A stretch of 64,000 bases of DNA, taken from assembly GCF_028368935.1 (NCBI RefSeq), contig NZ_JAQNDK010000006.1, positions 277,001-341,000 on the forward strand, given 5' to 3'. Source of the stretch: Sorangium aterium. Lineage in GTDB: Bacteria > Myxococcota_A > Polyangia > Polyangiales > Polyangiaceae. This document shows positions 6,742-61,715 of the stretch, one piece after another (positions within the stretch are counted from its first letter, which is position 1; the number at the start of each line of letters is the position of its first letter). The notes below the pieces were generated by a model. The model was given only the letters and a program-made list of their open reading frames with translations, did not search any database and was not told the origin of the DNA. Both the position numbers and the translations under genes were made by a program.

Positions 6742-6873
6742 GAGGTGACCTCTGGACGCGAGCATGACCGAGCATAGCGCGCAGGAGGCCGCGCTCGGCG
6801 AGGAACGCCTCGGGGCAGATCACCGAATTGGCATGATAGGCTGCGGGGCGCAGGCGGAACGGAAGGAGGCAAT

Positions 6874-7548: not shown

Positions 7549-7803
7549 GTTGACCGCTCCAATCGCGCCGGAGCCAAGCCGCAGTTGTTCGGGTCGTGGG
7601 CCGATCCGCCGCGCATCCCGTCCTCCGAGGGCACGCCGGCGCGCCGATCGCTGCCTGTCGTCGGCGAGCGATAGGGCGTCGCGGGGGCAACGCGGCGTCG
7701 GGAGCGACCGGCCCATGGCGAGGCCGACCGAGGGCGTCTCGGCGATTTCGAGGGTCGCGTCGAGCCCGCTCGGTCAGCTATAGATGTCCCGGAGGAGGAG
7801 CGC

Positions 7804-9834
7804 ATGGTCGGGATGGGGAGGGAAATCTGCGGCGACCTGGGGATCGCCGAAGAGCGCGAGTGGCTCGTCACCAACGGCATCGGCGGCTATGGCTCCGGGA
7901 CGGTGGCCGGCTCGCTCACGCGCGGCTACCACGGGCTCCTCGTCGCTGCCCTCCGGCCGCCCGTCGATCGGCGGCTGATGCTGGTCAAGCTCGACGAGAC
8001 CGTCACGTACCGCGGCGCGGCCTGGGACCTCGCGACCAACCGCTGGGCGAGCGGCGCCGTCGCGCCGGGCGGCTTCGTCAACATCGAGCACTTCGCGCTC
8101 GACGGCTCGATCCCTTGCTGGCGCTACGCCTGCGCCGACGCGCTGCTCGAAAAGCGCATCTGGATGGAGCACGGCCAGAACACCACCTACATCGCTTACA
8201 CCGCGCTCCGGGCCCGCGAGCCGTTGCGCTTCACCGCGCGCGCCATCGCCAACAACCGCGTCTTCCACAACACCGGCACCGTCGCGTGGCCGGCCGGGGT
8301 CAGCGCCGCTTCGGGCGGCGTCCGCGTCGTCACGGCCGGCGACGCGCTGCCGCTGTTCCTCAAGCTGGAAGGCAGCGCGGCCACCCCCGCGACGGAGCTC
8401 TACCGCGGCTTCGCGCTCCCGGCCGAGACGGCGCGCGGCCTCCTCGATCGCGACGACCACATCCACGTCGCGACCTTCGAGACGACGCTCCTGCCCGGCG
8501 AGACGGTGGTGTTCCTCGCCGCCGCCGGAGACGGCACCACCGCTGTCGAGCCGGAGGCCCTCGCGCGCCGCCGCGCGCGCGATCGGGCCCTCCTCTCGGC
8601 GTGGAGCGGGGCGAGGCCGTCGGGCGCGGCCGCCGCCCCCGGCTGGGTCGCACAGCTCGTCCTCGCCGCCGACCAGTTCGTCGTGGACCGCGCGCAGAGC
8701 CCCGGCGGCAGCCCCGGTAAGAGCCCCGGCGGTAGCCCCGGTAAGAGCATCATCGCCGGGTATCCCTGGTTCGAGGACTGGGGCCGCGACACGATGATCA
8801 GCCTCCCCGGGCTCGCGCTCTCGACAGGACAGGCGAGCATCGCCGCGCCGATCCTCCGCACGTTCGCCGCCTTCGTGGATCAGGGGATGCTGCCCAACCG
8901 GTTCCCCGACGGTGCCACGGTCCCTGAATACAACACGATGGACGCCACCCTCTGGTACTTCCAGGCCATCCGCGCCTGTCACGAGGCGACCGGCGACGAC
9001 GGGCTCCTGCGCGATCTGTTCCCGGTGCTGCAGGACATCATCGACTGGCATATCAAGGGCACGCGTTACGGGATCCATGTCGACCCGGGCGATGGTCTGC
9101 TCCGCGGCGGGCAGGAAGGCGTCCAGCTCACCTGGATGGATGCCAAGGTCGGTGATCGCGTGATCACGCCGCGTATCGGCAAGCCGGTCGAGATCAACGC
9201 CCTCTGGTACAACGCGCTGCGGGCGATGGTCGCCTTCGCCGCCCGCCTCGGCGAGCCCGCCGAGCCGTATCAGGGGATGGCGGCGAGGGCCCTCGCGTCC
9301 TTCGATCGCTTCTGGAACGCCGCCGCGGACTACTGCTACGACGTCCTCGACGGGCCCTCCGGCGCCGAGGCGGCGCTCCGGCCGAACCAGCTCTTCGCCG
9401 TGTCGCTCCCCGAGAGCCCGCTCTCCCCCGAGCGACAGCGCGCCGTTGTCGACGCGTGCGCCCGGGCGCTCCTGACGTCGCACGGGCTGCGCTCGCTCGC
9501 CCCGTCGGAGCCGGCCTATCAGGGGGTCTGCGTCGGCGATCAGGAGCGCCGCGACGCTTCTTACCACCAGGGCACTGTATGGGCGTGGCTCATCGGCCCG
9601 TTCATCGAGGCGCACCTCCGCGTCTACCGCGATCCCGACGCAGCCCGCCGGCTGCTCGCGCCGATGGGTGATCACATCAACGCCGCCGGCCTCGGCTCGA
9701 TCAGCGAGATCTTCGATGGTGACGCCCCCTTCGTGCCGCGCGGCTGCATCGCCCAGGCGTGGAGCGTCGGCGAGGCGCTCCGCGCCTTCACGCTCCTCGA
9801 CCAGGCGGCGTCGCCCGTCCAGGCGCCCGCTTGA
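7804..9834 (+). CDS. Glycogen debranching enzyme (amylo-alpha-1,6-glucosidase, GDE family)
   Basis: A 676-residue enzyme that removes alpha-1,6 branches from glycogen or related glucans in the cytoplasm. The N-terminal domain contains WLVTNGIGGYGSGTVAGSLTRGYHGLLVAAL, the GDE_N signature. The (alpha/alpha)6 catalytic domain contains IIAGYPWFEDWGRDTMISLPGL, then NRFPDGATVPEYNTMDATLW, the glycan-binding LTWMDAKVGD and PNQLFAVSLPESPL. Length and motif order match bacterial GH133-type proteins. The ATG follows GGAGGAGGAGCGC. A short Ser/Pro/Gly repeat (8698-8745) is inserted between the two domains. No other glycogen genes are adjacent. Confidence 0.93.
   Translation: MVGMGREICGDLGIAEEREWLVTNGIGGYGSGTVAGSLTRGYHGLLVAALRPPVDRRLMLVKLDETVTYRGAAWDLATNRWASGAVAPGGFVNIEHFALDGSIPCWRYACADALLEKRIWMEHGQNTTYIAYTALRAREPLRFTARAIANNRVFHNTGTVAWPAGVSAASGGVRVVTAGDALPLFLKLEGSAATPATELYRGFALPAETARGLLDRDDHIHVATFETTLLPGETVVFLAAAGDGTTAVEPEALARRRARDRALLSAWSGARPSGAAAAPGWVAQLVLAADQFVVDRAQSPGGSPGKSPGGSPGKSIIAGYPWFEDWGRDTMISLPGLALSTGQASIAAPILRTFAAFVDQGMLPNRFPDGATVPEYNTMDATLWYFQAIRACHEATGDDGLLRDLFPVLQDIIDWHIKGTRYGIHVDPGDGLLRGGQEGVQLTWMDAKVGDRVITPRIGKPVEINALWYNALRAMVAFAARLGEPAEPYQGMAARALASFDRFWNAAADYCYDVLDGPSGAEAALRPNQLFAVSLPESPLSPERQRAVVDACARALLTSHGLRSLAPSEPAYQGVCVGDQERRDASYHQGTVWAWLIGPFIEAHLRVYRDPDAARRLLAPMGDHINAAGLGSISEIFDGDAPFVPRGCIAQAWSVGEALRAFTLLDQAASPVQAPA
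8698..8745. repeat. Tandem 24-bp repeat (two copies, each built of two 12-bp halves)
   Basis: Two 24-bp units differ by one base and encode SPGGSPGK twice. They form a flexible linker between the N-terminal and catalytic domains of the debranching enzyme. The length keeps the frame. Confidence 0.85.
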
Positions 9835-47355: not shown

Positions 47356-48273
47356 TCACTTGCGCGGGGTCGCCGGCGCGCTCTCCAGCGCGTAGACGAC
47401 CTTCACCTGCGTGCCGAACGGGACCTCGCCGGACGACACGGGCGTACCGATGTCCGCGGAGTACCCGCCGGAGGCGGCCATGGGGCGGGGGGCGTAGATC
47501 GGGCCCTGCTCGACGACCTCGCTGATCGAGACGACGTGGCCGAGCGAGACGCCCTGGAGCCTGGCGAGCGCCTCGGCGCGAGCCCGCGCGTCCGCGATCG
47601 CCTTCTCCCGCGCGCGCGCCTCGAGCGGGTCGGTCTCGTCGAGGCCGAACGAGACGCCCCAGACGTTGTTCGCGCCGGCGGCCACGGCCGCGTCGAGCAC
47701 CGCCCCGACCTGATCGAGCTTGCGGATCACGACCATCACCGTGTTGCTCACCTGATAGAAGTGCGTCGGCGGAGGCGGCGCTGCCGGCGCCAGGTCGGCA
47801 GGCGGCGGCTTCGGCGCGGGCGTCGGCGTCGGCTTCGGTCCGCGCCCCGCGGGCGCCGCGGGCGCCGCGGCCGGCGCCGCCGGCGCGGGCGCGGGCGCCG
47901 GCGGCGCGTAGCCCATGGCCATCCAGGGCGGCACGTCGGACTGCCGCACGAGCTGGATGGAGTAGTTGCTGGTCTGGATGTCCTTCTCGGCCAGGCCGGC
48001 GTTCTTGAGCGCGGCGAGGATCTCGGTCATGCGCGCCGCGGCCAGCTTCGTCGCCTCGTGCACCGTCGGCGCCATCACCTCGATGCCCATCTGGGCCCGG
48101 GCGACGTCAGGCCTCGCGCTGACGTCGCCGCGGCCGACGACCGTGATGGTGTTGACCTCCGGAGCGTTGGCCAGGGGCGGCGACGCCTGCGCCGCGCACG
48201 CGGCGAGGAGCGGTGTGACCGAGAGCAGGAGCCCGGCGAGGCACGTGCGGGACAGGGAGCGCTGGTTCTTCAT
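47356..48273 (-). CDS. SIMPL (DUF541) domain lipoprotein
   Basis: A 305-residue periplasmic or outer-membrane lipoprotein with lipobox LLAAC (about residue 26). The SIMPL domain is in two halves: ITVVGRGDVSARPDVARAQMGIE with LAEKDIQTSNYSIQLVRQ, and VSNTVMVVIRKLDQVGAVLDAAV with NNVWGVSFGLDETDPLEARAREKAIADARARAEALA. Between them sits an Ala/Pro spacer (about 125-170) not found in typical 230-residue homologues. SIMPL proteins such as E. coli YggE and Brucella BP26 are linked to oxidative stress, but no activity is fixed. Confidence 0.9.
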   Translation of the reverse strand: MKNQRSLSRTCLAGLLLSVTPLLAACAAQASPPLANAPEVNTITVVGRGDVSARPDVARAQMGIEVMAPTVHEATKLAAARMTEILAALKNAGLAEKDIQTSNYSIQLVRQSDVPPWMAMGYAPPAPAPAPAAPAAAPAAPAGRGPKPTPTPAPKPPPADLAPAAPPPPTHFYQVSNTVMVVIRKLDQVGAVLDAAVAAGANNVWGVSFGLDETDPLEARAREKAIADARARAEALARLQGVSLGHVVSISEVVEQGPIYAPRPMAASGGYSADIGTPVSSGEVPFGTQVKVVYALESAPATPRK

Positions 48274-48438
48274 GCCCGTGCAACGCGCGCCGCCCACGGC
48301 GGCTTACAGGGGGGCGCCCCCTCGGCGCTCGCCGCCGCGAGCAGACCGACGGGCCGCTCCCCGAGGCGCTCCGGCGATGCCCGAGGCGGCGGCGTTGCTC
48401 CCCCTCGGCAAGTTGTTCCACGCCGCGCCGGGTGCGCT

Positions 48439-50619
48439 ATGGTCGTTCACGTGCTCACAATACCCAGCGATGAAGAGGCCCTCGGAGGTCTGCAGGGTGC
48501 CACGATCGCCAGCGACCTCTCGTCAAGCATCGGCTACCGCATCGTGTCGCGCGCCGGGGCCGGGGCGATGTTCGTCTCGTTCTACGCGGTCCGCACCGCG
48601 CCCGAAGGCGAGACGCCCGTGGTCGTCAAGATCCTCCGGCCGTCGCTCTTCAGGCAGATGGGTCCGTCAGCGGCCGTCATCGTGAAGAAAGAGGCGGTGT
48701 CCCTCGGCCGCCTCAACGAGCAGGTCCCTCCGACCCCCTTCGTGGTCCGGCTCATCGACACCGGCACGTTCGAGGTCCGCCGCGGCACGAAGGCGCTCAA
48801 TCTTCCCTGGATCACCATCGAGTACGTGCACGGCGGCGTGCAGGGCGTGACGCTCCGGCAGCGGGTGCAGGGGACCATCCAGGCCACGGGCCACGCGTTC
48901 GATCCTGCGCGCGCGACGCGCGCCATCGAGTGCATCACGAGCGGGCTGTCGGCGGTGCACGACGTCGGCGTCGTCCATCGGCAGCTCACGCCGGAGAGCA
49001 TCCTCTGCTGCGGCTCCGGCGACGACGAGCTGTTCAAGATCAGCGACTTCGGCATGGCGCGGCCGCGCGGCATCCGCGAGACGATCATGGCCGGCGTCGT
49101 CGGCAACGCCGGGGTCGCGCCGCCGGAGATGCTGTCCGCGGATCCGAGCACGATCGGCCCGTGGACCGACATCTTCAACCTCGCGTCCGTCATCTTCTTC
49201 CTGCTCACGGGCGAGGAGTACATCATCGCGGAGTCGCAGGCGCAGGCGCTCATGGCCGCCATGGCGCGCGCGCGCCGGAGCATCGTCGAGACGCGGTGGC
49301 TCCACCCCGCGCTGCGCGCCAACGAGCAGGCGTGCAAGTCGATCGACTTCGCGCTCCGCTGGGCGTCCACCGGCGAGGCGCAGGAGCGCCTCCAGGAGGC
49401 GGTGGCCGTGGCCGCGATGCTCTCGCCGTACCTCCGCCCCGCCTCGCCGATCTCCGCGCTGGAGCAGCGGATCGTGGCGAGCGCCGGCGAGCAGCGCGTG
49501 CGCGCCGCCGAGGAGGTCGGTCCGATGACCGTCCCGTCCACGCACCTGAAGGCGCCGGTGCTGCTCAAGGGGGAGCTCGGCCAGACGCTGCTGTCGCCGC
49601 GAAACGCCAAGGCCGCCGAGCGCCCGAGCCAGGACCGCCCGATCGAGGCCGAGATCATCACTGTGCCCCCGCGCGCCTCGCGGGAGCCCGCGCCGCGCCT
49701 GTCGGCGGTCGTCGAGCGCTGGACGTGGAGCGTGCTCCACCACCCGAGCCTCGATTCGGTCATCCGGAGCGTGGCCTGGGACGGCTATGGCCGGTGCCTC
49801 GCCGCGGCCACGGGGGGGCTGCTCTTCTGGAACGGGACGAGCTGGAGCGAGGCGTCGTCCGGCGGACTCCCGAGCCCGCAGGGCGTGCGCTTCGTGCACC
49901 GGATCGGGCCCGGCCGGTGGCTGATCGGCGGCGACGCCTCGACGCTCGCTGTGTACACGACGGGCGGCGTGACGGGCGTCTTCCAGCTGCCGGGAGAGCC
50001 GCAGAGCCACGTCGCGCTGAGCGGCGACCTCGAGGACATGGGCATCCTCGTCTCGACGACGCCGAACGATCCGCGGCCGCTCCTCCACGCGTTCATCGCC
50101 AAGCGCTGGCTGCGGCCGATGCCGGCCGACGGCGTCGCGCTCCTCGCCGCGGTCGCGCGCGTCGAGGACGAGCGGTGGCTCGTCGTCGGCCGATCGAGCA
50201 AGGGCGAGGGGCTCGTCGCGCTCTACGCGCCGCTCGACTGGCACCTGGAGCGCATCCCGGCGCCGCCCGCGCGGGCGTTCGTCGCGTGCGCCGGGCGGCC
50301 CGATCTCGGCGTGGGCATCGCCGTCGGCGCGGAGGGGAGCGTCGTCTGGCGGTACGGGCAGAGCATCTTCACGGAGAACATCGAGCCGCGGCGCGCCCTG
50401 TCGGCCGCGACGATCGACGCGGAGGGGCGCGCCTGGGCGGGCAGCGCGGGGCGCATCTGGGTGCGGCGCGGCGGCATCCCGCCCATGGCGGGGGTGTGGG
50501 AGTGCGTCTGGGAGAACGACGCGTGGGTCGGCCCGGTCGTGTCGCTGTTCGTCGACGGCGAGGTGGTCGTCGCCATCACCGCGGACGGCGGCATCATCGA
50601 GGGCCGCGTCACGGGCTGA
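48439..50619 (+). CDS. Pseudokinase (HRQ) with C-terminal propeller-like region
   Basis: A 726-residue protein. The kinase-like domain (about 20-330) keeps the ATP lysine (VVVKILRP), the DFG motif (KISDFGMARP) and an APPEML segment. However, the catalytic loop reads VVHRQLTPESIL, so the catalytic Asp is Gln; the glycine loop (SRAGAGAMFVSF) is also loose. It is therefore probably a pseudokinase. After a linker (about 355-430) the C-terminal 300 residues repeat short beta units such as DGYGRCLAAATGGLLFWNGTSWSEAS and GRAWAGSAGRIWVRRG, like sensor propellers of the two-component-regulator type. It converges on the SpoIIE operon with 19 bases between stops. Confidence 0.87.
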   Translation: MVVHVLTIPSDEEALGGLQGATIASDLSSSIGYRIVSRAGAGAMFVSFYAVRTAPEGETPVVVKILRPSLFRQMGPSAAVIVKKEAVSLGRLNEQVPPTPFVVRLIDTGTFEVRRGTKALNLPWITIEYVHGGVQGVTLRQRVQGTIQATGHAFDPARATRAIECITSGLSAVHDVGVVHRQLTPESILCCGSGDDELFKISDFGMARPRGIRETIMAGVVGNAGVAPPEMLSADPSTIGPWTDIFNLASVIFFLLTGEEYIIAESQAQALMAAMARARRSIVETRWLHPALRANEQACKSIDFALRWASTGEAQERLQEAVAVAAMLSPYLRPASPISALEQRIVASAGEQRVRAAEEVGPMTVPSTHLKAPVLLKGELGQTLLSPRNAKAAERPSQDRPIEAEIITVPPRASREPAPRLSAVVERWTWSVLHHPSLDSVIRSVAWDGYGRCLAAATGGLLFWNGTSWSEASSGGLPSPQGVRFVHRIGPGRWLIGGDASTLAVYTTGGVTGVFQLPGEPQSHVALSGDLEDMGILVSTTPNDPRPLLHAFIAKRWLRPMPADGVALLAAVARVEDERWLVVGRSSKGEGLVALYAPLDWHLERIPAPPARAFVACAGRPDLGVGIAVGAEGSVVWRYGQSIFTENIEPRRALSAATIDAEGRAWAGSAGRIWVRRGGIPPMAGVWECVWENDAWVGPVVSLFVDGEVVVAITADGGIIEGRVTG

Positions 50620-50638: not shown

Positions 50639-53098
50639 TCACCGCGGCGCGCGGTACCTGGCCACGACGAGCGTGATGTCGTCGTCCGGGCTCGGGCACC
50701 AGCCGTCGACCTCCCGCAGGATCCGGTCGCGGATGTCGTCGACAGGCGTGTCCTGGGCGGCTTCGACGGTGGAGCAGAGCCGCGAGAGCCCGAACTGCTC
50801 CCGGTGCGCGTTGCGCGCCTCCGTCACCCCGTCGCTGTAGAGCACGAGCAGGTCGCCGTCCTCGAGGAGGAGCTCGGCGTCCCTGGTCATCGCGTCGATG
50901 GACGGCAGGACGCCGACCCACACGCCGGAGCTCGGGATGCACTCGCTCCTCCGCGTCCTCGCGCGGCACACGATGATGTCGTCGTGCGCGCCCGCGAACG
51001 TCACCCGCCCGCCGCGCTCGTAGCGCAGCAGCAGCAGGGTCGCGTGCTCGTCGCGCTTCAGCCGGTCGCGGATGTTGTCGTAGATCGCCCGGTTGAGCGC
51101 CGAGACGACCTCGCTCGGGCGGGCGCTCGGATCCCTGCGGGTCATGGCCGCGACCATGCTCTGGATCATCAACATGACGAGGCCCGCCACGAGCCCGTGC
51201 CCCGCGACGTCGCCGATCCCGAGCCACCCGCCATCCCGCGTCGGGAGCACGTCGTAGTAGTCGCCGCCGACCTCCGCGGCCGGCCGCATCATCGCGGAGA
51301 GCTCGAGCCCGTCCACCAAGAGGTGCGCCGGGACGAGCGTGGTCTGGATGTGCTTCGCGACGAGGGTCTCCTGATCGACCCTCTCCTGCTCCAGCCGCTC
51401 GCGGATCTCCACGTGCCGGACGATCTCCCGGTGCATCGACACCGCCTTCATCGCGGAGCCGATCTGGAGGCGCACCGCGTCGTAGACCGTCTCGTTCGCG
51501 CCGCTGTTGACGAGCGCGATGCCGTAGTGCTCCGTCTCCCCGAACGTGAGCGGCATCGCGACGACGCTCCAGCGCTCCGACGAGCTCAGGAATCCGGGCG
51601 GCGCGAGGCACGCGGACGCGAAGGTCCCGGGCGGCGGCTCCACCTCGCGGCTGTTCTCCATCAGAAAGAGCGACTGCAAGGTGGCGCGCTGGGGGTCGTC
51701 GAAGAGCGATATGGCGACGTGCGTGAGATCCAGCTTCGGCAGCTCCGCCGCGAGCGTGCGCCGGAGGGTGGGCATGCCCAGGCAGGTCGAGAAGAACATG
51801 CCGGTCCAGCTGAGGTTGACCGACGCGCGCTCCAGGTACAGCCGCTTCTCGCCCTCGGCGCGCACGGAGGCGTTGCTGATCAGGACGCGGCACGTGTGCC
51901 AGAGCCGCTCGAGGCGGTCGTCGGAGGCGCGGCCGGGCGCCCGGCCGATCTTCGCGCGGAGCAGCGTGATCGCGCCCTGGAACTGGTCGAGGGCGACGCC
52001 CTCGCGCGCCGCCGCGTCGAGGACGTCCTGGAGCGCCGTCAGGAAGCGGTCCTCCCGCCCCGTCAGCTCCTCCTCGAGCGCCGACAGCAGCTCTCGGGGC
52101 CAGGCCTGAAGCGACGCCGCCGGGACCGTCACGCACCGCGCGAGCGCGCGCTCCAGGGGCTCCTGCTGCGCGGCGACGGAGAGCGGCTCGCGGCGCGGAG
52201 GCGCCCCGGTCGGGCGCGGGAGGGCAGAATAGTAGCCGCAGCCGCACGACTCGCGCCGCGTGAGCTCGACGGGAAGGAGGCTGCACTCCGGCACACGCTC
52301 GCCGCGGAGCTGGCGCACGACGGTCTCGACGGCGAGCGCCCCGAGCTCCTTGATCGGATGGCGGACGGTCGTCAACGACGGCCTGGTGACGCGCGAGACG
52401 GCGACGTCGTCGAACCCGCACACGAGGACGTCGCCAGGGATGTCGACGCCGTGCGCCTTCAGCGTGTCCATCGCGCCGAGGGCCATGTTGTCGTTGCCGG
52501 CGACGACGGCATCGAACTCGACCCTGCGCCCGAGGAGCTCGCGCATCGCGCGGCGGCCGCCGTCGATCAGAAAATCGCCGTACACGAAGAGGCGCTCGTC
52601 ATAGGGGAGCGCGCGCGCCTCGAGGGCCCTCCGGTACGCCCCGGCGCGCAGCTTCGCCTCCTCGTTGTTGGCCGGCCCGCTGATGTAGGCGACGCGCTTG
52701 CACGCGTGATCGTCGAGCACGTGCGCGACCGCCGCCTCCCCCCCGACCGCGTTGTCGACGATGACGCTCGGGATGCCGTCCAGCGCGAGCCCCACGCTGC
52801 ACACGGGCAAGGGCGCGAACGCTCGGCAGAACTCGTGCGCTCCCTCGGAGCCGACGTAGTTGGTGAGCGCCGACGACATGATCACCGCCCCATCGACCGT
52901 CGTCGCGCCGATGAGCGAATAGATCCCGCCCCGGGCGTCCAGCGTGTAGCCCTGGCGGGCGCGCGTCTCGCCGAAGGCCACGATGAGGTTGACGCCGTGC
53001 GCCTCGGCCGCGCGCTCGACCCCGAAGCGCGCCTCGGACTGGTACTCGCCGCAAAGATAGTCGGTCAGGAGGGCGATCGTGTGGCGCTTCGCCGCCAT
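50639..53098 (-). CDS. LacI-type sugar-binding domain fused to SpoIIE-type PP2C phosphatase
   Basis: An 819-residue protein. Residues 7-270 form a periplasmic-binding-protein-like domain as in LacI repressors (TIALLTDYLCGEYQSEARFG, GPANNEEAKLRAGAYRRALE, AVVAGNDNMALGAMDTLKAHG, VCGFDDVAVSRVTRPSLTTVR). There is no DNA-binding headpiece and no signal peptide. A helical and GAF-like middle (about 290-590) follows. The C-terminal 220 residues are a SpoIIE/RsbU phosphatase with all metal motifs (AEVGGDYYDV, GIGDVAGHGLVAG, LLVLYSDGVTEARN, SPDDDITLVV). It should dephosphorylate a partner STAS protein in response to a small ligand. ATG at 53098 follows GGGGAG. Last gene of a three-gene operon. Confidence 0.92.
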   Translation of the reverse strand: MAAKRHTIALLTDYLCGEYQSEARFGVERAAEAHGVNLIVAFGETRARQGYTLDARGGIYSLIGATTVDGAVIMSSALTNYVGSEGAHEFCRAFAPLPVCSVGLALDGIPSVIVDNAVGGEAAVAHVLDDHACKRVAYISGPANNEEAKLRAGAYRRALEARALPYDERLFVYGDFLIDGGRRAMRELLGRRVEFDAVVAGNDNMALGAMDTLKAHGVDIPGDVLVCGFDDVAVSRVTRPSLTTVRHPIKELGALAVETVVRQLRGERVPECSLLPVELTRRESCGCGYYSALPRPTGAPPRREPLSVAAQQEPLERALARCVTVPAASLQAWPRELLSALEEELTGREDRFLTALQDVLDAAAREGVALDQFQGAITLLRAKIGRAPGRASDDRLERLWHTCRVLISNASVRAEGEKRLYLERASVNLSWTGMFFSTCLGMPTLRRTLAAELPKLDLTHVAISLFDDPQRATLQSLFLMENSREVEPPPGTFASACLAPPGFLSSSERWSVVAMPLTFGETEHYGIALVNSGANETVYDAVRLQIGSAMKAVSMHREIVRHVEIRERLEQERVDQETLVAKHIQTTLVPAHLLVDGLELSAMMRPAAEVGGDYYDVLPTRDGGWLGIGDVAGHGLVAGLVMLMIQSMVAAMTRRDPSARPSEVVSALNRAIYDNIRDRLKRDEHATLLLLRYERGGRVTFAGAHDDIIVCRARTRRSECIPSSGVWVGVLPSIDAMTRDAELLLEDGDLLVLYSDGVTEARNAHREQFGLSRLCSTVEAAQDTPVDDIRDRILREVDGWCPSPDDDITLVVARYRAPR

Positions 53099-53115
53099 GA
53101 TCTATCGCTCCCCGT

Positions 53116-53493
53116 TCACTTGTCGTGGATGGAGACGAGGCCGGGGGACATGCGCTCCAGGGCCGCCAGGCTCCGCCGCTGCCACCCGAGCCTCGCGTCC
53201 GTGATGAACCGAACCTTGCACTTGGGGCCATCGCCGGTGACGCCGGCGATGAAGGCGATGAACGCCTTCAGGCAGCTCGAGTTCAGGAAGTACAGCGCGC
53301 GTATGTCGAACTCCACGGCTGCGAGCGAGAGGCGCCGCACCTCGTGCTGGACCTCCTTGCAATAGGCGCCGAGCGGCGCGGCCGCCGCCATGTCGCCCGT
53401 CCCGGTGAGCTTGATACTCAGGCGATCGCCGAGCAGCGCCGGCTCGATGCCGAAGCTGTCCGTGGTGACGCGATCAACCCTTAGGCTGTCCAT
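53116..53493 (-). CDS. STAS-like (anti-anti-sigma type) protein
   Basis: A 125-residue protein whose fold fits an STAS domain: a beta start (RLSIKLTGTGDMAAAAPLGAYC), VQHEVRRLSLAAVEFDIRALYFLNSSCLKAFIAFIAGV, and a final LAALERMSPGLVSIHD. The NSSCLKAF segment is where SpoIIAA/RsbV carry the phosphorylatable Ser. It is divergent from classical family members. It lies between an RsbW-like ATPase gene (20-base overlap) and a SpoIIE phosphatase gene (17-base gap), which strongly supports a partner-switching role. Confidence 0.82.
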   Translation of the reverse strand: MDSLRVDRVTTDSFGIEPALLGDRLSIKLTGTGDMAAAAPLGAYCKEVQHEVRRLSLAAVEFDIRALYFLNSSCLKAFIAFIAGVTGDGPKCKVRFITDARLGWQRRSLAALERMSPGLVSIHDK

Positions 53494-53998
53494 TCATCCT
53501 CCACCGCTCGAGCGGCGCGTGCGCGATGATCGTGAGCTCGTTGCCCTCGATCTTGTAGTCGACGTCGAGCCCTCCCTCGGCGCGGACGCGCGCGAGGCCC
53601 AGGCCGGAGACGCCCTCGACCATCGCTGTCTCCGTGATGAGGTCGTCGTAGTGCTTCAGCGGGTCGCTCGCCGTCTTCAGGTCGAGCAGCCGCTTCTCGA
53701 CCTCTCGCAGCCGCTCCGGCGACGCCTCGTTGCGCGCGCGGATCTTCATGATGTGCGACCTCTCGTCCTCCTCCAGCGCGAGCTCGAGGCTGACGCGAGG
53801 GCCGGTGGAGTATTTCGTGATGTTCTCGGCGAGCTCGTGCGCGGCCATGTAGAACCGCGAGCTCACATTCGCGTCGTCCAGCACGGCGCCGCAGAAGCTG
53901 GACACCAGCCGCAGCACCGCCGTCGCCAGGCGCTCGCTCGGAAAGAAGGTGATGCAGAGGAATAGCGAGGCGCTCTGCGTCGGTTCGGGGGATGACAC
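53474..53998 (-). CDS. RsbW-like ATP-binding protein (GHKL fold)
   Basis: A 174-residue protein. The N-box is visible in FYMAAHELAENITKYSTGP (E..N) and a weak G motif occurs in AMVEGVSGLGLARVRAEGG. An insert of about 40 residues between them (ARNEASPERLREVEKRLLDL) is helical. It may act as kinase or sequestering partner for the STAS protein encoded next. GTG at 53998 is the longest start, but no clear ribosome site precedes it. First gene of the operon. Confidence 0.78.
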   Translation of the reverse strand: MSSPEPTQSASLFLCITFFPSERLATAVLRLVSSFCGAVLDDANVSSRFYMAAHELAENITKYSTGPRVSLELALEEDERSHIMKIRARNEASPERLREVEKRLLDLKTASDPLKHYDDLITETAMVEGVSGLGLARVRAEGGLDVDYKIEGNELTIIAHAPLERWRMNGQPKG

Positions 53999-54410: not shown

Positions 54411-57400
54411 ATGAAACAACGACGCTTCTCGCTCGGGCCGCCCTGGCCACTCGGGCTGTCGCGCCGCCGCCCGCATCGCTTGGCGGCGATGACGGGCCTC
54501 CCTTTTCTCGTGGTGCGCGGCGTCCTGGCCGGCGCCGCCGCGGCGGCAGCGGCCATCGGCTGCAGCACCGCGCCCGGGACGGAGGGCGAGCCCGGGCGCC
54601 CCGCCGGCGCGAGTCACGGTGTCGGAGAGGGCGATTCGGTGGCGCTCGGAGCGGCCCCAGCAGCGCTCTCGAGCGATGGTGCGGTGTGCGTCACCATCCA
54701 GCGTGGAGCTCTCGGCACGGTGAGAGATGCGACACTGTGGCAAAACGCTCCGGGGTGGAACGACTCCGCATCTCCGAACCTCTCGACGGGGTGGGCCGCG
54801 GGCGCCGGCCGCCGCCGGTCTGTCGTGTACTTCGGGCTCTCTCCCGTGCCGGTCGGCGCGACGGTCCTCTCTGCCTCGCTGGTCTTCCATCAGACGTACG
54901 CGGTGGAGAGCAGCGCTGTGAGCGTACACCGCGTCACGATCCCGTGGGACGAGCGCACCGTCACCTGGTCGAGCCTCGGGGACAGCGGCTTTGAAGGCGA
55001 GAGCGCGGCGACCATCGCGGCCGAGGCGGGCGTCGGCGCTCGGGCGGCGGACGTGTCGGCGCTCGTGCAGTCGTGGGCGCTCGGGACGGCGCGGAACGAC
55101 GGCGTGCTGCTCGCCGAGGGCGACGAGGAGCGCGCCCACACGACCTACCTGAGGAGCAGCGAGATCGGCAGCGCGCAGGAGCGCCCCAGGCTCGACGTCT
55201 GTTACGTGACCTGCTCGGACGGGGTGATGAACGGCCTCGAGGTGGGCCTCGACTGCGGAGGGCCGCGCTGCGCTCCCTGCACGGGCGCGACGGTCGGCAC
55301 GTCGAGCGCCGCCGTGTCGAGCGCCGCCGCGTCGAGCGCCGCCGTGTCGAGCGCCGCCGTGTCGAGCGCCGCCGCGTCGAGCTCGACGGGCGCGTCGAGC
55401 GCGGCGGGCGATCCGTGCGCCGGCGCGGCCGCGCTGCCGCCCGATCCGCTGCCGCCCGCGCGGCTCTCCGAGACCGGGCTCTACGCCGACATCACGACCC
55501 GATCGCGGGCGGCGGGCACGCGCGAGTTTCGTCCTGCTTACGAGCTCTGGTCGGACGGGGCCGCGAAGCGGCGCTTCGTGTACCTGCCGCCCTGCTCCAC
55601 CGTCGACACGAGCGACATGGATCACTGGTCGCTGCCCGTCGGCGCGCGCTTCTGGAAGGAGTTCCGCGCGGAGGGCGTGGCCGTGGAGACGCGGTTCATC
55701 CACCGGTTCGGGCCGGGCATCGATGACTGGCTGTTCGCCGCGTACGCGTGGGATCCTGCGAGGAACGACGCGTTCCTCGTCGAGGAGGGCGTCGAGGACG
55801 CGCGCGGGACCGCGCACGACATCCCCCGGACCGCGGACTGCTGGGAGTGCCACGGCAAGCTCCCGGAGCGCGTCCTCGGCTTCAGCGCGCTGCAGCTGAG
55901 CCACGATGGACCGGGCGAGACGATCGCGTCCCTGAGCGACGCCGGGTGGCTCACCGTCCCGATGCGGGGAGGGGTGCGCCCGCCGGGCGACGCCCGGGCG
56001 GCCGCCGCGCTCGGCTATCTCCATGCGAACTGCGGCAATTGCCACAACAGCACAGGCGTCGCGACCCTGCGGACACGCCTCCTCGCGGCGAACACCACGG
56101 TGGAGAGCACCGATACGTACACGACCGGCGTGCGCGTGACGCCCAGCTTCTGGGAGCCCGGCGCGCTCTACCGGATCACGCCGGGAGATCCCGAGTCGAG
56201 CGCCGTCGTGCGCCGGATGGAGAACCGCGGCTCCAGGGCCCAGATGCCCCCGATCGCGTCGGACGCCGCCGACGCGGCGGGCCTCGCGGCTGTCCGCTCC
56301 TGGATCGAGGACCTCGGGCCGCCGCCCGAGGCAGGGAGCGGCGGCGGCAGCGCAGGCAGCGGCGCAGGCGGCGCGAGCGTTGGCGTCAGCAGCACGAGCG
56401 CGAGCTCCGGCTCCGGCGCCAGCAGCGGCGGCTCCGGCGCCAGCAGCGGCGGCTCCGGCGCCAGCAGCGGCGGCTCCGGCGCCAGCAGCGGCGGCTCCGG
56501 CGCCGCGTGCGCCGGGGTGCCGCGCCTGAAGCTCACGCAGGTCGCGGCCGGCCTGGCGACCCCCGTCTTCCTCGCCAGCCCGCCGGGCGACCGATCGAGG
56601 ATGTTCGTCCTCGAAAAGGACGGCATCGTCCGCCTGATCAAGGACGGTGTCCTCCGGTCCACCCCGTTCCTCGAACTCCGGGGCGGCGCCTCGTGCCCGC
56701 CGGCGCGGCCGGCGAGCGCGAACCCGCTCGTGTGCGCGCCCAGCCCGACCGCGGAAGGCGGGCTGCTCGGGATGGCGTTTCACCCGGGCTACGCGAGCAA
56801 CGGCAGGTTCTGGCTCTTCTACACCGCCGCGCCGAGGGGCAACGTCACGATCGCCGAGTTCCGCCGCTCGGCCTCGAACCCCGATGTCGCGGACACGTCG
56901 GCGGGGAGCGTGCCTGTCCGGACGCTCCTTGACGCGAATCACGGCGGCTGGAACCACGTGGGCGGCACGCTCGCGTTCGGCCCCGACGGCTACCTCTACG
57001 CGTCCGTGGGCGACTCGGCTGTCACGCCGTATTCGGCCTCTCCGGCCAAGGACCTCTCGTCTCCGCTCGGCAAGATCCTGCGGATCGACGTGGACAGCGG
57101 GCTCGGCCCTTCAGGCAACCTCTCCGGCGCGGGCGTGAACCCGCTCGTCTGGGACTACGGCCTGCGCAATCCATGGCGCATCAGCTTCGACCGGAGCACC
57201 GGGGATCTCTACATCGCCGACGTGGGACAGAACGCGTGGGAAGAGCTCGACATCGAGCCCGCGCGCACCGGGCGGCGCAATTACGGGTGGCCGGCGATGG
57301 AGGGTGACCACTGCGTCGCCGCCGGGTGCTCCCGCGTCGGCGTCGCGCCCGCCGTGGAGCACAGCCACTCGAGCGGGGAGGGCGGCTCGATCACGGGCGG

Positions 57401-57635
57401 CTACGTCTACCGCGGGTCAGCGATCCCGTGCCTCCGGGGAAGGTACGTTTACGGCGACTACGGGACGCACCGCTTCTGGACGCTGCGGTGGGACGGCTCG
57501 CGGGTGCGGGATCACGTCGAGATCACGGCGGACCTCGAGTCGCGCCTGCCCGCGGCCTCGTTCGGCGAGGACGCCGCCGGCGAGCTCTATGTCGTCATGC
57601 TGACCGGCGAGGTGTTCCGCGTCGATCCGAGGTGA
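54411..57635 (+). CDS. Secreted DNRLRE / di-heme cytochrome c / PQQ-type sugar dehydrogenase fusion
   Basis: A 1,074-residue exported protein with a lipobox-like AAIGC near residue 51. Residues about 85-275 form a DNRLRE beta-sandwich ([36 protein letters not shown]). A Ser/Ala linker with a 15-bp repeat follows. Residues about 350-640 match SO2930-type di-heme proteins ([40 protein letters not shown]) with heme motifs CWECH (477) and CGNCH (541). A Gly/Ser linker with a 21-bp repeat leads to a soluble glucose/sorbosone dehydrogenase domain (about 700-1074; [64 protein letters not shown]). Electrons from sugar oxidation could pass to the hemes. ATG follows AAGGAGGG. Confidence 0.88.
   Translation: [1074 protein letters not shown]
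55302..55376. repeat. 15-bp tandem repeat (five units) in Ser/Ala linker
   Basis: Unit TCGAGCGCCGCCGTG, five copies with G/T or G/C variation in one position. It encodes [10 protein letters not shown] and links the DNRLRE domain to the cytochrome domain in frame. Confidence 0.85.
56409..56504. repeat. 21-bp tandem repeat (4.6 units) in Gly/Ser linker
   Basis: Four exact 21-bp units (from 56409, 56430, 56451, 56472) plus 12 bases encode GSGASSG repeated. They join the cytochrome and dehydrogenase domains. Confidence 0.88.
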
Positions 57636-57656: not shown

Positions 57657-60600
57657 CTATCCCGCGAGCTGCCCGTCGCCCGCCCGGAGCTTCGCGAAGC
57701 GCGGGCGCCAGGCCCGGCTCTCGGCGAGCAGCGGCGCGGTGCGCGCGAGGAGCAGCGCCAGATCCTCGGGGCGGCCGGCGTCGAGCAGGGCGCGCGCCCG
57801 CCAGTAGAGGAGCTCGACCCGCTGATCGGCGCTGAGGCCGCCGCCCAGCTCGCCGGGCGGCTCCCCCTCCTCGCGCACCGTCGCCCGCGTGCGCGGGCTC
57901 TCCATGCCGGACCTCGGATCCTTCACGGCGAGCTGCATGACGCCGAGGAGGGCCTGGGCGTACGGCGGCAGATCCGCGATCGCCCCCTGCGCCCTCAGCC
58001 ACCGGAGCTGCCGGCTCGCGTCCGCGTGCTCGTCGCGCATCGCATGGATCCGCGCGAGCAGGAGCGCGCTCCTGTAGGCCGGCCTGTCCTTGAGCTGCTC
58101 GTCGAGCGAGCGCGCCTGCCGCACCAGGGGCAGCGCCTCGTCCTCGTGCCCCCAGAGGTAGAGCAGCTCCGCGAGCTTGATCGTCGCGTCGCGCTCCGCC
58201 AGGGTGCTCGCCTCCTCGCGGGCCAGCTGGACCGCGCGCCGGAGGTCCGCCATCGCGCGATCCGGGGCGTCGAGCGCCGGCCAGAGCTCCGCGCGGCGGA
58301 CGAGCGCCGCGCAGAGGTGGCCCCGGTCGCCGCGCTCCTCACAGCTGCGCACGGCGTCGTCGAAGCGCCGCTCCGCCTCCTCGAGCTGGCCGGACCGTGC
58401 GAGCACGCAGGCCAGCAGCGTGAGCCCCGTCACGTGCGTGTCGTGATCGGCCTCGCGGACGCGCTCCACGCCCTGCGTGAGCCGCTCGAGCGCGTCGTCC
58501 AGGTTGCCCTTGCGGAACGCCGAGCGGCCTGCCGCGACCTCGAAGCGCGCGGCGAGCGCGGCGTCGGCGCGGCCCTCGCGGACGTCGAGCAGCGGGATCA
58601 CCTCCTCGACGCGCGCCGCCGACTCTTCCCAGGAGCCGGCCCAGTCGAGCGCGGTCGCCTCCTCGAGCAGCGCCTCCGCGATCATCCGCGGGTCCTTCAT
58701 CGTCCGGGCGAGCGCCCCCGCGGAGCGGAGATCGTCGAGCGCCTCGCCGGTGCGCAGGACGCGGTAGCGCACGCGCGCGCGGCCGAGGAGCGCGAGGTAC
58801 CGCTGGCGCTGATCGTCGCCGTCGGCCCAGAGGAGCGCGGACGCGTAATGGCTCTCTGCCACCGCGTTGTTGTGCCGGTCGCGCTGGAGATCGCCGAGGA
58901 GCAGGTACGCGTGCGCCGCGCGCGCGCGCGCCCCGGCGGCCGCGGCGTGGCGCGCGATCGGCTCGAGCAGCTCCGGCGCCCTCGGCCGGGCCTCGGCCCT
59001 GAGCTCCCAGACGGCGAGCGCGTGCCGGTGCATCGCCGCGCGCTCCTCCTCCGGGAGCAGCGCGTAGATGGCCTCCTGCAAGAGCGCGCTCCGGAAGGCG
59101 TAGCTGGCGCCGCCGCAGAGGGCGCCCTCGCGCGGCGCGGCGTCGTGCGCGCCGCGGGGCACGAGGAGCCCTCGCGCCACCAGCGCGCGCAGGGCGCTCG
59201 AGACGTCGACGTGGTCGACGTACGCCGGCGCGCCCTCGCGTTCGAACGCGCGTTGCACGCTCGCCGCCACGTCCTCCGAGACCTCGAAGCCGAGCACCGC
59301 GCAGAGCCTCGCGCAGGCGGCGAGCTCCGGCGGGAGCGCCTCGAGCTGCCGCGCGGCGAACCACTGCCACGCGGGCGACGGCGGGAGCCTCTCCAGCTCG
59401 GCGGTCGCGAGCTGGTGGCCGCTCGATCTCGCCCGCAGCCGCACGAGGCCCGCCCGCTTGATCGCCCGGGTGAGCTCCACGAGGCCGCGCGGGTTGTAGC
59501 CGGCCCACGCGCAGATGCGCCGGAGCGTCGCGCTCGGCGGAGGCTCCGCGGGCCGGAGGAGCTCCGCGCAGAGCAGGAGCCCGGCGGCGTCGTCGAGCGG
59601 CGGGAGCGCGACGTGATCGCGCGCGTGGCCGCGGGCGCTCAGCGCGTGGCGCCGCGGCGTCGGCGAGCAGCGCGCCGGCGCGCCGGCGAGCAGCACCCAG
59701 AGCGCGACCGACGCCTCGCGCCGCGTCGCGAGGTCGAGCGCGTCGAGCGTGGCGCCGTCGGCGAGGTGCGCGTCGTCGACGATCACGACGACGGGCCGCT
59801 CCATCCCCCGGCGGCGGAGCGCCTCTGCGAGCGCCCGGATCACGCTCCCGCGGCGCGGCGGCGGCTGGCCTGCGGAGCCGCCCGTCCAGCCGAGGATCGC
59901 GGCCACGGCCGGCCACACCTCGCCGCCGAGCGGCTCTCCGAGCCGCTCGACGCAGAACGCGCGCGGGTCGTCGGGCGCCGCGGGGGCGCCGTCCCTCGCG
60001 CCGAGCACCTCGGCGAGCAAGGCGGCCGCGGTCTGGCCGAAGCCGCCCCCGGGCCGCGCGCCGAGCTCCGGCTCGGCGCGCAGCGAGATCACGAGCGCGC
60101 CCGGGTGGGCGCGGCGGCTGCTCTCGGCGATCTCCTCGGCGAGCCGCGACTTGCCGACGCCGCGCTCGCCGATCAGCGCGCACAGGCCGGGCCCGAGGCC
60201 CGCGAGCGCGCGCTCGCGGCTCTCCTCGACGGCGCCCTGAACGTCGCCGCGCCCGACGAGCGGCGGCGCGGCGCGCGCGGCGCCGCGATGGCCCGAGGGC
60301 GGGGGCGCGTCCGGGGCGAAGAAGTAGCGGCCGTCCTCGCTCGCCGCGACGACATCGAACCCGGGATGCGCGGTGACGAGCTCGGCGCTGAGCGCGATGC
60401 CCCGCCACGAATCCGCGGGGAGCCACGACTCGGGCCGCTCCACGGCGATCCCGGCGGCGTGCACGCTCTCGGCGTCACGGCGGAGCTTCAACGGCGCGAT
60501 GTGGATCGCGAGGGGCGCGCCGACCGAAGCGACGATCTCCCGCCCCGCGAGGAGCGCGCGCTCCGCGGCCGCCTCTTTCGGGCCGGGGAAGATCGCGACG

Positions 60601-61715
60601 AAGCGGTAGCCGCGCTGCCGCGCGAGGTGCCCGTCGTGGCGGGCCACGGCGGCGCGGACCTCGGCCTCGGCGCCGCGGGCCTCCAGGGCGAGCACCACCG
60701 TGTCGTGCCGGTCCGTGGAGCCCGTGGCGACATCGTCTCCCGCGGTCGCCGCGGCGCCGGCGGCGCCGCCGGCCAGGGCGAGCGCCTCGGCGCCCGCCGA
60801 CGCGAGCGCGGCCCGCAGGCCCGCGGCGTCCGCCGGGCGGAGCGCGCGCTCCTTGGCGAGGCAGGCGAGGACGAGGGCCTCGATGGACGGAGGGACCGGG
60901 GCGATCTCGCTCGGCCTCGGGGGGAGCCGGCCGAGGTGCCCCTGCGTGACGTTCGCGCGATCGCCCGCGAACGGAGGGCGCAGCGTGAGCAGCTCGAAGA
61001 GGAGCGCGCCGAAGGCGTAGAGGTCCGCGCGCGCGTCGAGCGGCTCGCCCCGGAGCCGCTCGGGCGCGGCGTACTCGGGCGTCCCGAGCATGGCGCCCAG
61101 CGTGGTGAGCGCGCTGTCCGCCGGGTGGCAGACGACGCCGCGCACGCGCTGCGTGAGGCCGAAGTCGAGGAGCCGCACGCCGCCGTCGGGCTCGAGGAAG
61201 ACGTTCTCGGGCGCGAGATCCAGGTGGACCAGGCCGCGCTCGTGCACCACCTGGAGGCAGCTCAGCACGCCGAGCGCGACGTCGAGGGCGGAGCGCAGGT
61301 CGGGCGCGGCGGGCAGGCCCTCGAGGTGGGCCGCCAGCGTCTCGCCGCGGAGGCGCTCCATCGCGATGTACGCGCGGCCGTCCTCGAGCACGCCGTTCTG
61401 GAGCAGGCGAGGCGAGGCCGGGGGGCCGAGCTGCTCGAGCGCCCACGCCTCGCTGCGGAACCGCTCGCGCGCGAGCAGCGAGTGGGCCGTGCTGACCTTG
61501 AGCACGGCGGGGGCGCCGTCCTCCGCGCGCGTCGCGGCCCAGATGACCGAGAAGGCGCCTGCCGCGAGCGGCGGGCCGACGAGGAAGCCCGCGACGGACG
61601 GCGGCGTCTCGGCGCCGAGATCGACCGGCGCTGGGCGGGACGGCGCCGTGGCTCCGTCCGTCGGGCAGGAGGTGAGCACTGCGAGTCGGCGATGGCAGGA
61701 AGGGCAACGCGGCAA
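57657..61715 (-). CDS. Zn-ribbon / Ser/Thr kinase / cyclase-like / AAA-type ATPase / TPR giant signalling protein (copy B)
   Basis: A 1,352-residue paralogue of the gene at 13097-17095, with the same domains in the same order. It opens with MPRCPSCHRRL...CPTDG (zinc ribbon). The kinase domain has AVLKVSTAHS, a catalytic loop LVHLDLAPENVFL (HLD in place of HRD, catalytic Asp kept), LLDFGLTQ and GTPEYAAPERLRG. A degenerate cyclase-like domain follows (YRFVAIFPGPKEAAAERALL, LAIHIAPLKLRR). The ATPase has Walker A LIGERGVGKSRLA and Walker B VVVIVDDAHLAD. The C-terminal half is TPR-like. It converges with the preceding fusion gene with 21 bases between stops. Confidence 0.9.
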   Translation of the reverse strand: MPRCPSCHRRLAVLTSCPTDGATAPSRPAPVDLGAETPPSVAGFLVGPPLAAGAFSVIWAATRAEDGAPAVLKVSTAHSLLARERFRSEAWALEQLGPPASPRLLQNGVLEDGRAYIAMERLRGETLAAHLEGLPAAPDLRSALDVALGVLSCLQVVHERGLVHLDLAPENVFLEPDGGVRLLDFGLTQRVRGVVCHPADSALTTLGAMLGTPEYAAPERLRGEPLDARADLYAFGALLFELLTLRPPFAGDRANVTQGHLGRLPPRPSEIAPVPPSIEALVLACLAKERALRPADAAGLRAALASAGAEALALAGGAAGAAATAGDDVATGSTDRHDTVVLALEARGAEAEVRAAVARHDGHLARQRGYRFVAIFPGPKEAAAERALLAGREIVASVGAPLAIHIAPLKLRRDAESVHAAGIAVERPESWLPADSWRGIALSAELVTAHPGFDVVAASEDGRYFFAPDAPPPSGHRGAARAAPPLVGRGDVQGAVEESRERALAGLGPGLCALIGERGVGKSRLAEEIAESSRRAHPGALVISLRAEPELGARPGGGFGQTAAALLAEVLGARDGAPAAPDDPRAFCVERLGEPLGGEVWPAVAAILGWTGGSAGQPPPRRGSVIRALAEALRRRGMERPVVVIVDDAHLADGATLDALDLATRREASVALWVLLAGAPARCSPTPRRHALSARGHARDHVALPPLDDAAGLLLCAELLRPAEPPPSATLRRICAWAGYNPRGLVELTRAIKRAGLVRLRARSSGHQLATAELERLPPSPAWQWFAARQLEALPPELAACARLCAVLGFEVSEDVAASVQRAFEREGAPAYVDHVDVSSALRALVARGLLVPRGAHDAAPREGALCGGASYAFRSALLQEAIYALLPEEERAAMHRHALAVWELRAEARPRAPELLEPIARHAAAAGARARAAHAYLLLGDLQRDRHNNAVAESHYASALLWADGDDQRQRYLALLGRARVRYRVLRTGEALDDLRSAGALARTMKDPRMIAEALLEEATALDWAGSWEESAARVEEVIPLLDVREGRADAALAARFEVAAGRSAFRKGNLDDALERLTQGVERVREADHDTHVTGLTLLACVLARSGQLEEAERRFDDAVRSCEERGDRGHLCAALVRRAELWPALDAPDRAMADLRRAVQLAREEASTLAERDATIKLAELLYLWGHEDEALPLVRQARSLDEQLKDRPAYRSALLLARIHAMRDEHADASRQLRWLRAQGAIADLPPYAQALLGVMQLAVKDPRSGMESPRTRATVREEGEPPGELGGGLSADQRVELLYWRARALLDAGRPEDLALLLARTAPLLAESRAWRPRFAKLRAGDGQLAG

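Follow-up and report, generated by a model that had tools for sequence, protein, structure and literature searches.

The 64,000-nucleotide stretch of the Sorangium aterium genome analysed here (contig NZ_JAQNDK010000006.1, positions 277,001 to 341,000; hereafter the window) contains a minus-strand operon of three genes, R, S and W, in that order. Its products appear to form a trio of the partner-switching type in which the sensor is, unusually, soluble. We consider it probable that this is a cytoplasmic ligand-gated partner-switching module, with R as the kinase, S as the switch protein and W as the phosphatase. R and S overlap by 20 bases (53474-53493) and S is separated from W by 17 bases (53099-53115), and the open reading frames (ORFs) of all three genes agree with the tight operon proposed in an initial annotation of this DNA, which did not include the repetition of the module within the genome. 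Scans for promoters and terminators found none. Below, loci, genomes and contigs are denoted by L, G and C numbers respectively.

W begins with a LacI-type sensor. Residues 131-285 match Peripla_BP_3 (PF13377) with E 2.4e-28 (99.7 bits against a cut-off of 26.5), and in a PDB search residues 4-285 align with the solved LacI-family core 9nt3 (E 8.1e-35), and also with CcpA, PurR and LacI. The N-terminal domain thus has the LacI/periplasmic-binding fold that had been predicted. No helix-turn-helix (HTH) family of Pfam matches W, the PDB alignments start at residue 4, which is the start of the repressor core past the headpiece, and the preceding gene is S; W thus falls outside the LacI-family transcription factors. 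The six most hydrophobic 19-residue windows of the protein all begin at residues 626-636, within the SpoIIE domain. Since hydrophobic windows are confined to that domain and there is no HTH match, W is probably cytoplasmic. The class-conserved residues of its LacI domain are R151, N202, D203 and D230; among the W stretches covering the pocket positions R151 is present in 28/28 and D230 in 27/28. At the other end of the protein, residues 625-815 match SpoIIE (PF07228) with E 2.6e-38 (132.3 bits, cut-off 25). The catalytic aspartates are retained in the W stretches covering each, D613, D630 and D756 in 27/27 and D806 and D807 in 28/28, where we take the placement of the metal-binding positions from the PPM motifs. 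The fusion of an HTH-less LacI-type sensor to an intact phosphatase is therefore confirmed.

The two named domains of W in the initial annotation stand, with two further elements between them that it had missed. An AlphaFold2 (AF2) model of residues 289-583 (pLDDT 91.7) shows a helical bundle that leads into a GAF fold and then into a long helix. The middle region fits the GAF structure 3trc with VIA Z 12.1 (131 residues, root-mean-square deviation (rmsd) 3.0). The top Foldseek matches are GAF-containing structures, with a best E of only 4.6e-3 and none below 0.001. Pfam finds no GAF match in W itself; GAF_2 is matched at the equivalent place in its relatives L091 (E 4.4e-5) and, weakly, L094. 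The GAF assignment is thus based on the VIA match, the predicted secondary structure and the Pfam matches of these two relatives. The helical part also scored VIA Z 10.7 against 3zta, titled as a stressosome structure, and this was not used, as helical bundles can score so high by chance. Residues 561-600, in the linker to the phosphatase, have a mean identity of 74.5% among the paralogues in this genome.

For R and S themselves Pfam yields nothing at E<=0.1, STAS included. R matches the NCBIfam model slr1658_superfam (NF047703) with E 2.3e-7 (30.4 bits) and S matches slr1659_superfam (NF047705) with E 5.5e-9 (36.3 bits), in both cases below the cut-off of 100. When relatives are added, the best solved profile match of R is SiaB (6kko, E 4.5e-4). 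The AF2 model of R (pLDDT 87.1) also fits SiaB best, with VIA Z 16.2 over 147 residues (rmsd 2.9), followed by SpoIIAB with Z 13.8 over 127 residues (rmsd 2.5). The likeness to SiaB lies in profile and fold only, as the SiaB family NF038262 of NCBIfam is not among the matches of R at E<=0.1. R contains an N-box with E55 and N59 and a G2-like GLGL at residues 132-135; E55, N59 and N90 are invariant in a 24-row alignment. For S, again with relatives added, the best solved profile match is SpoIIAA (1auz, E 8.5e-6), and among 22 aligned relatives 10 match STAS and 11 match STAS_2 (Pfam, E<=0.1). N71 and S72 are invariant in the 22-row alignment, while S73 is replaced by alanine in one row (L026). 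S73 is aligned with what we take to be the phosphorylated serine of SpoIIAA, and is presumably the site of phosphorylation in S.

The module is one of several in this genome. The 13.47 Mb genome holds five W genes, the window copy and four paralogues; three of the latter sit in complete R-S-W modules arranged in tandem (L009), and the fourth belongs to an S-W pair without R (L010). Mean pairwise identity among the five paralogues is 80.8% for SpoIIE, 71.8% for S, 62.3% for the LacI domain, 60.9% for the GAF region and 52.1% for the helical region, and that of R over its four copies is 78.4%. The output parts have thus diverged less than the sensor. Synteny around the window module extends to S. 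cellulosum So0157-2 (L062) and So0008-312 (L064), and one flank recurs in So ceGT47 (L063), where W comes immediately after R and S is absent between the two (L063 5440-8463).

In this genome and its relatives 27 W genes have a readable upstream side, a set that leaves aside L078 (Fibrobacter), L259 and the first piece of L065 (both cut by contig ends), and the second W of G309 and of G337. Directly upstream of these lie R and S in 15 cases, S with a remnant of R in four, S only in three, R only in one and neither in four. The three genes are therefore kept together more often than chance would allow, as had been expected of them. In a phylum sample R is found in 12/377 genomes, with 16 matches (E<=1e-6). 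A match to S directly adjoins R in 14 of the 16 (15 with a broader S model), although most of these rows helped to build the models; L027 was not used for that of S. The remnants of R comprise N-terminal segments of about 30 residues and/or C-terminal ones of about 25-37 residues, and stand before S and W in L065, L066, L067 and L068. In each of these loci the remnant is upstream of the last W in view, this W being cut by the end of the stretch in L066 and L068. By contrast, R is intact in all three modules of the array in the window genome. The three consecutive modules here, set against the kinase remnants of sister strains, offer a natural experiment on network duplication and kinase sharing.

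R and S also adjoin SpoIIE proteins with HAMP or 4HB_MCP sensors. The core of the system is therefore R-S-SpoIIE, with an exchangeable sensor. In a tree of SpoIIE domains the 10 LacI-SpoIIE proteins of the window's family group together (support 99/98). They lie within a 15-row group (85/95, drawn open) that adds L034 and four R-S-linked SpoIIE domains whose sensors are of another type; L034 is thus outside the 10-row group, and L075 is outside both. Overall the LacI label does not form one clade, requiring 4 changes, a number as low as that being obtained in 82/500 shuffles. In a tree of the sensors (LacI plus helical/GAF) the closest neighbours of 14 LacI-SpoIIE rows are two LacI-histidine kinases of Myxococcota (100/100); on this tree at least 3 changes are needed to account for the SpoIIE label. 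The LacI-GAF cassette is found on histidine kinases in Chloroflexota, Spirochaetota and Bacillota, on GGDEF domains in Spirochaetota and Pseudomonadota, and on an MCP domain in a Spirochaetales metagenome-assembled genome (MAG). The simplest reading of the trees is a sensor swap, in which an R-S-SpoIIE switch would have acquired a cytoplasmic LacI-GAF cassette. The LacI-SpoIIE protein of a Fibrobacter MAG (L078) does not belong to the SpoIIE group that the window's family forms; it sits on a long branch joined to another long branch, and is likely to be a second, independent fusion. We also note a Bacillota MAG with four LacI-cassette genes in a row (L087), of which at least one (5938-8403) is a histidine kinase by Pfam.

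From the domains, catalytic residues, gene order and duplication, and from the sharing of R and S with SpoIIE proteins of other sensor type, we infer how ligand binding, dimerisation, phosphorylation, the direction of the effect and the output might be arranged. R would be an ATP-dependent kinase that phosphorylates S on Ser73, and W the opposing phosphatase that takes the phosphate off again. The LacI-type domain of a W dimer would close on binding a small ligand from the cytoplasm, for which a sugar or sugar-like metabolite is the likeliest candidate. Closure would then pass via the exit of the sensor domain, which is marked by His and Cys residues (see below), and through the helical bundle, GAF fold and long helix to the switch helices of the PPM domain. 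Regulatory domains of phosphatases of this fold act through those helices (PMC5468089). The signal arriving there would turn W on or off. The state of S would decide which partner is bound, with S in one of its two states binding the target, and the partner is probably encoded elsewhere in the genome. Partner-switching phosphatases are usually regarded as sensing envelope, stress or protein inputs. A receptor for a soluble metabolite placed directly on the phosphatase would, if true, open the input to study by straightforward ligand screens.

The initial annotation suggested that the phosphatase controls a sigma or anti-sigma switch, a reading that the present analysis does not support. In classical sigma control R would be the anti-sigma factor and S its antagonist, and W would free a sigma factor upon ligand binding. 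The fold of R does match SpoIIAB, UsfX and RsbW (VIA Z 12.7-13.8), Foldseek alone places SpoIIAB (E 1.9e-6) slightly ahead of SiaB (E 4.7e-6), S has SpoIIAA as its best profile match, and the expansion of SpoIIE in Sorangium has been linked to partner-switching proteins of COG1366 and COG2172 (PMC2887360). Nevertheless SiaB is the better match for R in both profile and VIA comparisons, and no sigma-factor family was found in the 22 neighbouring ORFs scanned with Pfam (these include the SpoIIE of L252 itself, and most neighbours lie outside the scan). We think sigma control unlikely.

In a scheme like that of SiaABCD, one state of S would directly control an enzyme, for example a nucleotide cyclase, encoded elsewhere. 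The closeness of R to SiaB is in keeping with this, as are a weak match of W to SiaA of NCBIfam (NF038263, E 1.5e-9; 37 bits, below the cut-off of 700) and the activation of SiaD by SiaC (PMC7647112). On the other hand the profile of S favours SpoIIAA over SiaC (E 0.39-0.5), and no cyclase was found among the scanned ORFs beside LacI-type modules, most neighbours again being outside the scan. A distant Myxococcota relative (genome G174, L258 5635-8699) has four consecutive genes on one strand, running from 8699 to 5635: SpoIIE, then R, then S, and lastly a class III cyclase (Guanylate_cyc, E 3.4e-48). This suggests possible control of a class III adenylate/guanylate cyclase by partner switching, although it is a single locus and its R and S are remote. 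The order of genes at L258 makes an enzyme output slightly more likely, and sigma control slightly less so. Direct control of an enzyme is possible, though we would not presume it, and a target of the SiaABCD kind is somewhat more likely than a sigma/anti-sigma pair. At three other loci a gene of histidine-kinase type adjoins the R-S pair on the same strand (L252 6469-8004, L254 5906-7786 and L256 9633-11309), and the SpoIIE there has another type of sensor.

Several observations weigh against a module of kinase, switch and ligand-gated phosphatase. Classical kinases of the RsbW/SpoIIAB type have the aspartate of the G1 box at the position occupied in R by Asn90, although in the profile alignment SiaB likewise has asparagine there. 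The scores of R and S are far below the NCBIfam cut-offs, so that their roles as kinase and substrate rest on fold, motif and position. No output gene was found among the neighbouring ORFs scanned beside the LacI-type modules, most neighbours being outside the scan. Lastly, an intact R-S pair is missing at 12 of the 27 W genes, so modules need not be self-contained. We nevertheless prefer the ligand-gated module as the account of R, S and W.

The second result concerns the sensor itself. In an alignment of 32 diverse LacI-type sensors with a mean column identity of 24%, the invariant columns are H126, H131, R151, D196, D203, G228, D230, S284, C285, G286 and C287 (numbered as in W). One row (L009) extends past the LacI domain, and the invariant columns lie inside the LacI part; the profile made with this over-long row served only for the comparison with solved relatives around CGC described below. 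The constancy of R151, D203 and D230 bears on whether the domain senses anything at all. That it is only a scaffold for dimerisation, with no sensing, would fit the replacement of D230 in 1/28 W stretches, yet with these residues invariant over such diverse sensors we regard it as very improbable.

The histidines form an H-x4-H and the cysteines a C-x-C at the exit of the domain, both present in 28/28 W stretches covering these places. Their distribution was surveyed in 109 LacI-type proteins from eight genomes, taken from 166 PF13377 rows (19/19 from the window genome, including the five W genes, and 90/147 others); the seven outside genomes were picked for holding such fusions. C-x-C is present at the domain end in 62 of 64 C-terminally extended proteins and in 3 of 45 unextended ones, HTH having been called by a rough pattern such that some proteins classed as lacking HTH and having a short tail are repressors. 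Both histidines are found in 65/65 proteins with C-x-C, spaced as HX4H in 53 and HX3H in 12. Among the 44 others H131 is found in 2 and H126 in 15. In a second, overlapping set both histidines are again present in 65/65 proteins with C-x-C, and in proteins without it H131 is found in 0/35 and H126 in 28/35. The Fisher value for the co-occurrence is 4e-24, which is descriptive only, as related sequences are taken as independent. Repressors often have H126 on its own, so that class specificity lies with H131 and the two cysteines only.

There are exceptions. The two extended proteins without C-x-C are L142 (CGSGC) and L171, and four more are found among the loci retrieved by pattern (L114, L119 and L120, the last twice). 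L133 is a fifth such locus that does not follow the rule, its LacI domain being at the C-terminus. L114 and L120, from an Actinomycetales MAG, are LacI-GGDEF fusions lacking both C-x-C and H131, so the signature is not needed in every fusion. In the opposite sense, SCGC is carried by three short-tailed HTH proteins, all of one Bacillota genome, and L123 is an apparent HTH protein with SCGC. In the Bacillota genome G378 the sequences of the HTH proteins L175, L191 and L200 finish at or close to SCGC, while three other proteins (L202, L209 and L221) combine HTH and SCGC with another 144-146 residues past the LacI-type domain.

The four side chains of the signature are a candidate Cys2His2 metal site or thiol switch that may fix the exit strand of the sensor to the C-terminal lobe; the His and Cys halves presumably lie in the same lobe of the LacI fold. 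This suggests a metal or redox clamp between sensor and output. If so, the primary signal could be the metal or redox state at H126, H131, C285 and C287, with the sugar pocket secondary, as the strict co-occurrence of the His pair with C-x-C across outputs and phyla might imply. However, R151, D203 and D230 of the pocket are equally conserved, a structural Zn site would yield the same pattern, and among solved relatives (60 listed of 74) no alignment runs through CGC. It is doubtful, in our view, that metal or redox state is the signal, and a metabolite in the pocket is preferred. Should the signature be a metal or redox site, it would be of wider interest than the operon.

W has the sequence features of a proposed class of Cys2His2-marked LacI-type sensors, with H-x3/4-H and C-x-C at fixed places. 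We propose, tentatively and with slightly less than even confidence, that this is a broad unrecognised class of cytoplasmic LacI-type receptors in which a metal or redox exit clamp would couple closure to SpoIIE, RsbR-type STAS, histidine kinase, GGDEF and MCP outputs, and that Sorangium uses the class on both arms of partner switching. The signature marks sensors in several phyla that could otherwise be mistaken for LacI repressors or periplasmic proteins, and offers a concrete and falsifiable way to approach the transmission of closure from a LacI-type core to very different outputs.

The second arm consists of six LacI-type proteins of the same genome with STAS at the C-terminus (E 2.8e-10 to 6.2e-14). 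These STAS domains are of the RsbR type, with a profile of the six matching RsbR structures at E about 1e-31. Five of the six carry C-x-C, L142 having CGSGC instead, and two are in tandem. No match to R or S was found within the 14-15 kb stretches around these genes. PF13377 exceeds its cut-off in 10/140 Myxococcota genomes, of which the window genome is one with 19 matches; this indicates that LacI-type sensing has expanded here, feeding both phosphatases and STAS proteins. As part of the same tentative proposal, five LacI-GAF-SpoIIE and six LacI-RsbR proteins would bring metabolite sensing to both arms of partner switching in Sorangium.

Near the module in the window Pfam identifies a protein-kinase ORF (47536-50619, plus strand), an ORF of the glucose/sorbosone-dehydrogenase (GSDH) type with CBM96 (54411-57635, plus strand) and a second protein-kinase ORF with AAA_16 and TPR matches (57657-61715, minus strand). 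At L062 and L064 the module is likewise flanked by relatives of these three ORFs. Families common to loci with LacI-type modules are almost all explained by local synteny; they comprise these three and, beside the array, an nSTAND1 ORF and a pyruvate kinase. One family, a lactonase-type propeller ORF, occurs next to W genes in two different settings (L069/L072 and L070).

Features of the R-S-W module in the window, and related genes elsewhere in the genome. Positions refer to the window unless a contig (C) or locus (L) is given.
Feature	Position	Strand	Description or basis
R	53474-53998	-	174 aa, GHKL-type kinase-like protein, SiaB/slr1658-like
S	53116-53493	-	125 aa, STAS-like switch protein
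S Ser73, presumed phosphorylation site	53275-53277	-	alignment with SpoIIAA
W	50639-53098	-	819 aa, LacI-type sensor/helical bundle/GAF/SpoIIE; Pfam, PDB search, AF2 of 289-583
LacI-type periplasmic-binding fold without HTH, W 4-288	52235-53089	-	Peripla_BP_3, 9nt3, conservation
H-x4-H half of candidate metal site, W 126-131	52706-52723	-	H126, H131
RESCGC, W 282-287; C-x-C half of candidate metal site, sensor-domain exit	52238-52255	-	C285, C287
Helical bundle ending in long helix, W 308-437	51788-52177	-	AF2 helices, model residues 20-149; fold not firmly assigned
GAF fold, W about 438-535	51494-51787	-	VIA, Foldseek, Pfam matches of relatives
Long helix/linker to phosphatase, W 536-600	51299-51493	-	AF2 helix, model residues 248-294
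SpoIIE (PPM) phosphatase domain, W 601-815	50654-51298	-	PF07228 at 625-815; Asp residues kept
LacI-RsbR (STAS) fusions L141, L142, L144	C4:887065, C4:902757, C2:814195		
LacI-RsbR (STAS) fusions L145, L147, L148	C2:816626, C5:695170, C6:393184		
slr1658/slr1659-type genes	L011: 8062-8979 and 9939-10508		

The SpoIIE-SpoIIAB-SpoIIAA and RsbU-RsbW-RsbV systems have the same three enzyme types and the same switch logic as the module described here. They differ from it in that no sigma factor was found among the scanned neighbours of the module, that R is closer to SiaB, and that the sensor is unrelated. The proteins slr1658 and slr1659 are matched weakly by R and S, with the bit scores given above. 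A true slr1658-slr1659 fusion does exist in the window genome, between two SpoIIE genes (L011, C4:1371k), where it scores 151 and 141 bits (cut-off 100); the same locus holds another slr1658-like gene (47.9 bits). In Synechocystis slr1658 is tied to recovery from iron limitation (PMC7555055).

With the SiaA-SiaB-SiaC(-SiaD) system of Pseudomonas aeruginosa the module shares a PPM phosphatase, a GHKL kinase and a switch protein of the STAS fold (PMC7647112). R is nearest to SiaB in fold, whereas S is more like SpoIIAA than SiaC. SiaC, the switch protein of SiaB, is phosphorylated on Thr68 and activates a diguanylate cyclase (PMC7647112); the presumed site in S is Ser73, and no cyclase was found among the scanned ORFs beside the window module. 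The sensor of W is LacI-GAF. The periplasmic-binding-protein (PBP)-like domain of LacI regulators has been listed among putative c-di-GMP sensors, and domains of the PBP clan have been called periplasmic (PMC8846402). The accessible text of that account of LacI-GGDEF sensors contains no mention that we found of SpoIIE, STAS or the His/Cys signature.

The closest precedent is from the same genus. The initial annotation called the system undescribed, and this cannot be upheld, since a fusion of a periplasmic-binding domain with SpoIIE was reported in Sorangium in 2010 (PMC2887360). According to the accessible part of that paper, eight SpoIIE-like phosphatases of S. cellulosum form one clade, most with the periplasmic binding domain pfam00532; the organisation was unique to S. 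cellulosum in the genome set studied and seems to have arisen by gene duplication. Kinase genes of the COG2172 (anti-sigma kinase) type were reported close to a few SpoIIE-like genes (PMC2887360), and for some of these the neighbouring R may thus already have been noticed. W is the same fusion. In the accessible text of PMC2887360 we found no description of the R-S-W unit, the GAF fold, the modules in tandem, the LacI-STAS fusions or the His/Cys signature, nor was the signature described in the accessible text of PMC12589917, PMC7555055, PMC8846402, PMC7647112 or PMC5468089. The fusion has thus been known since 2010, while the repeated three-gene modules and the conserved His/Cys signature appear to be new.

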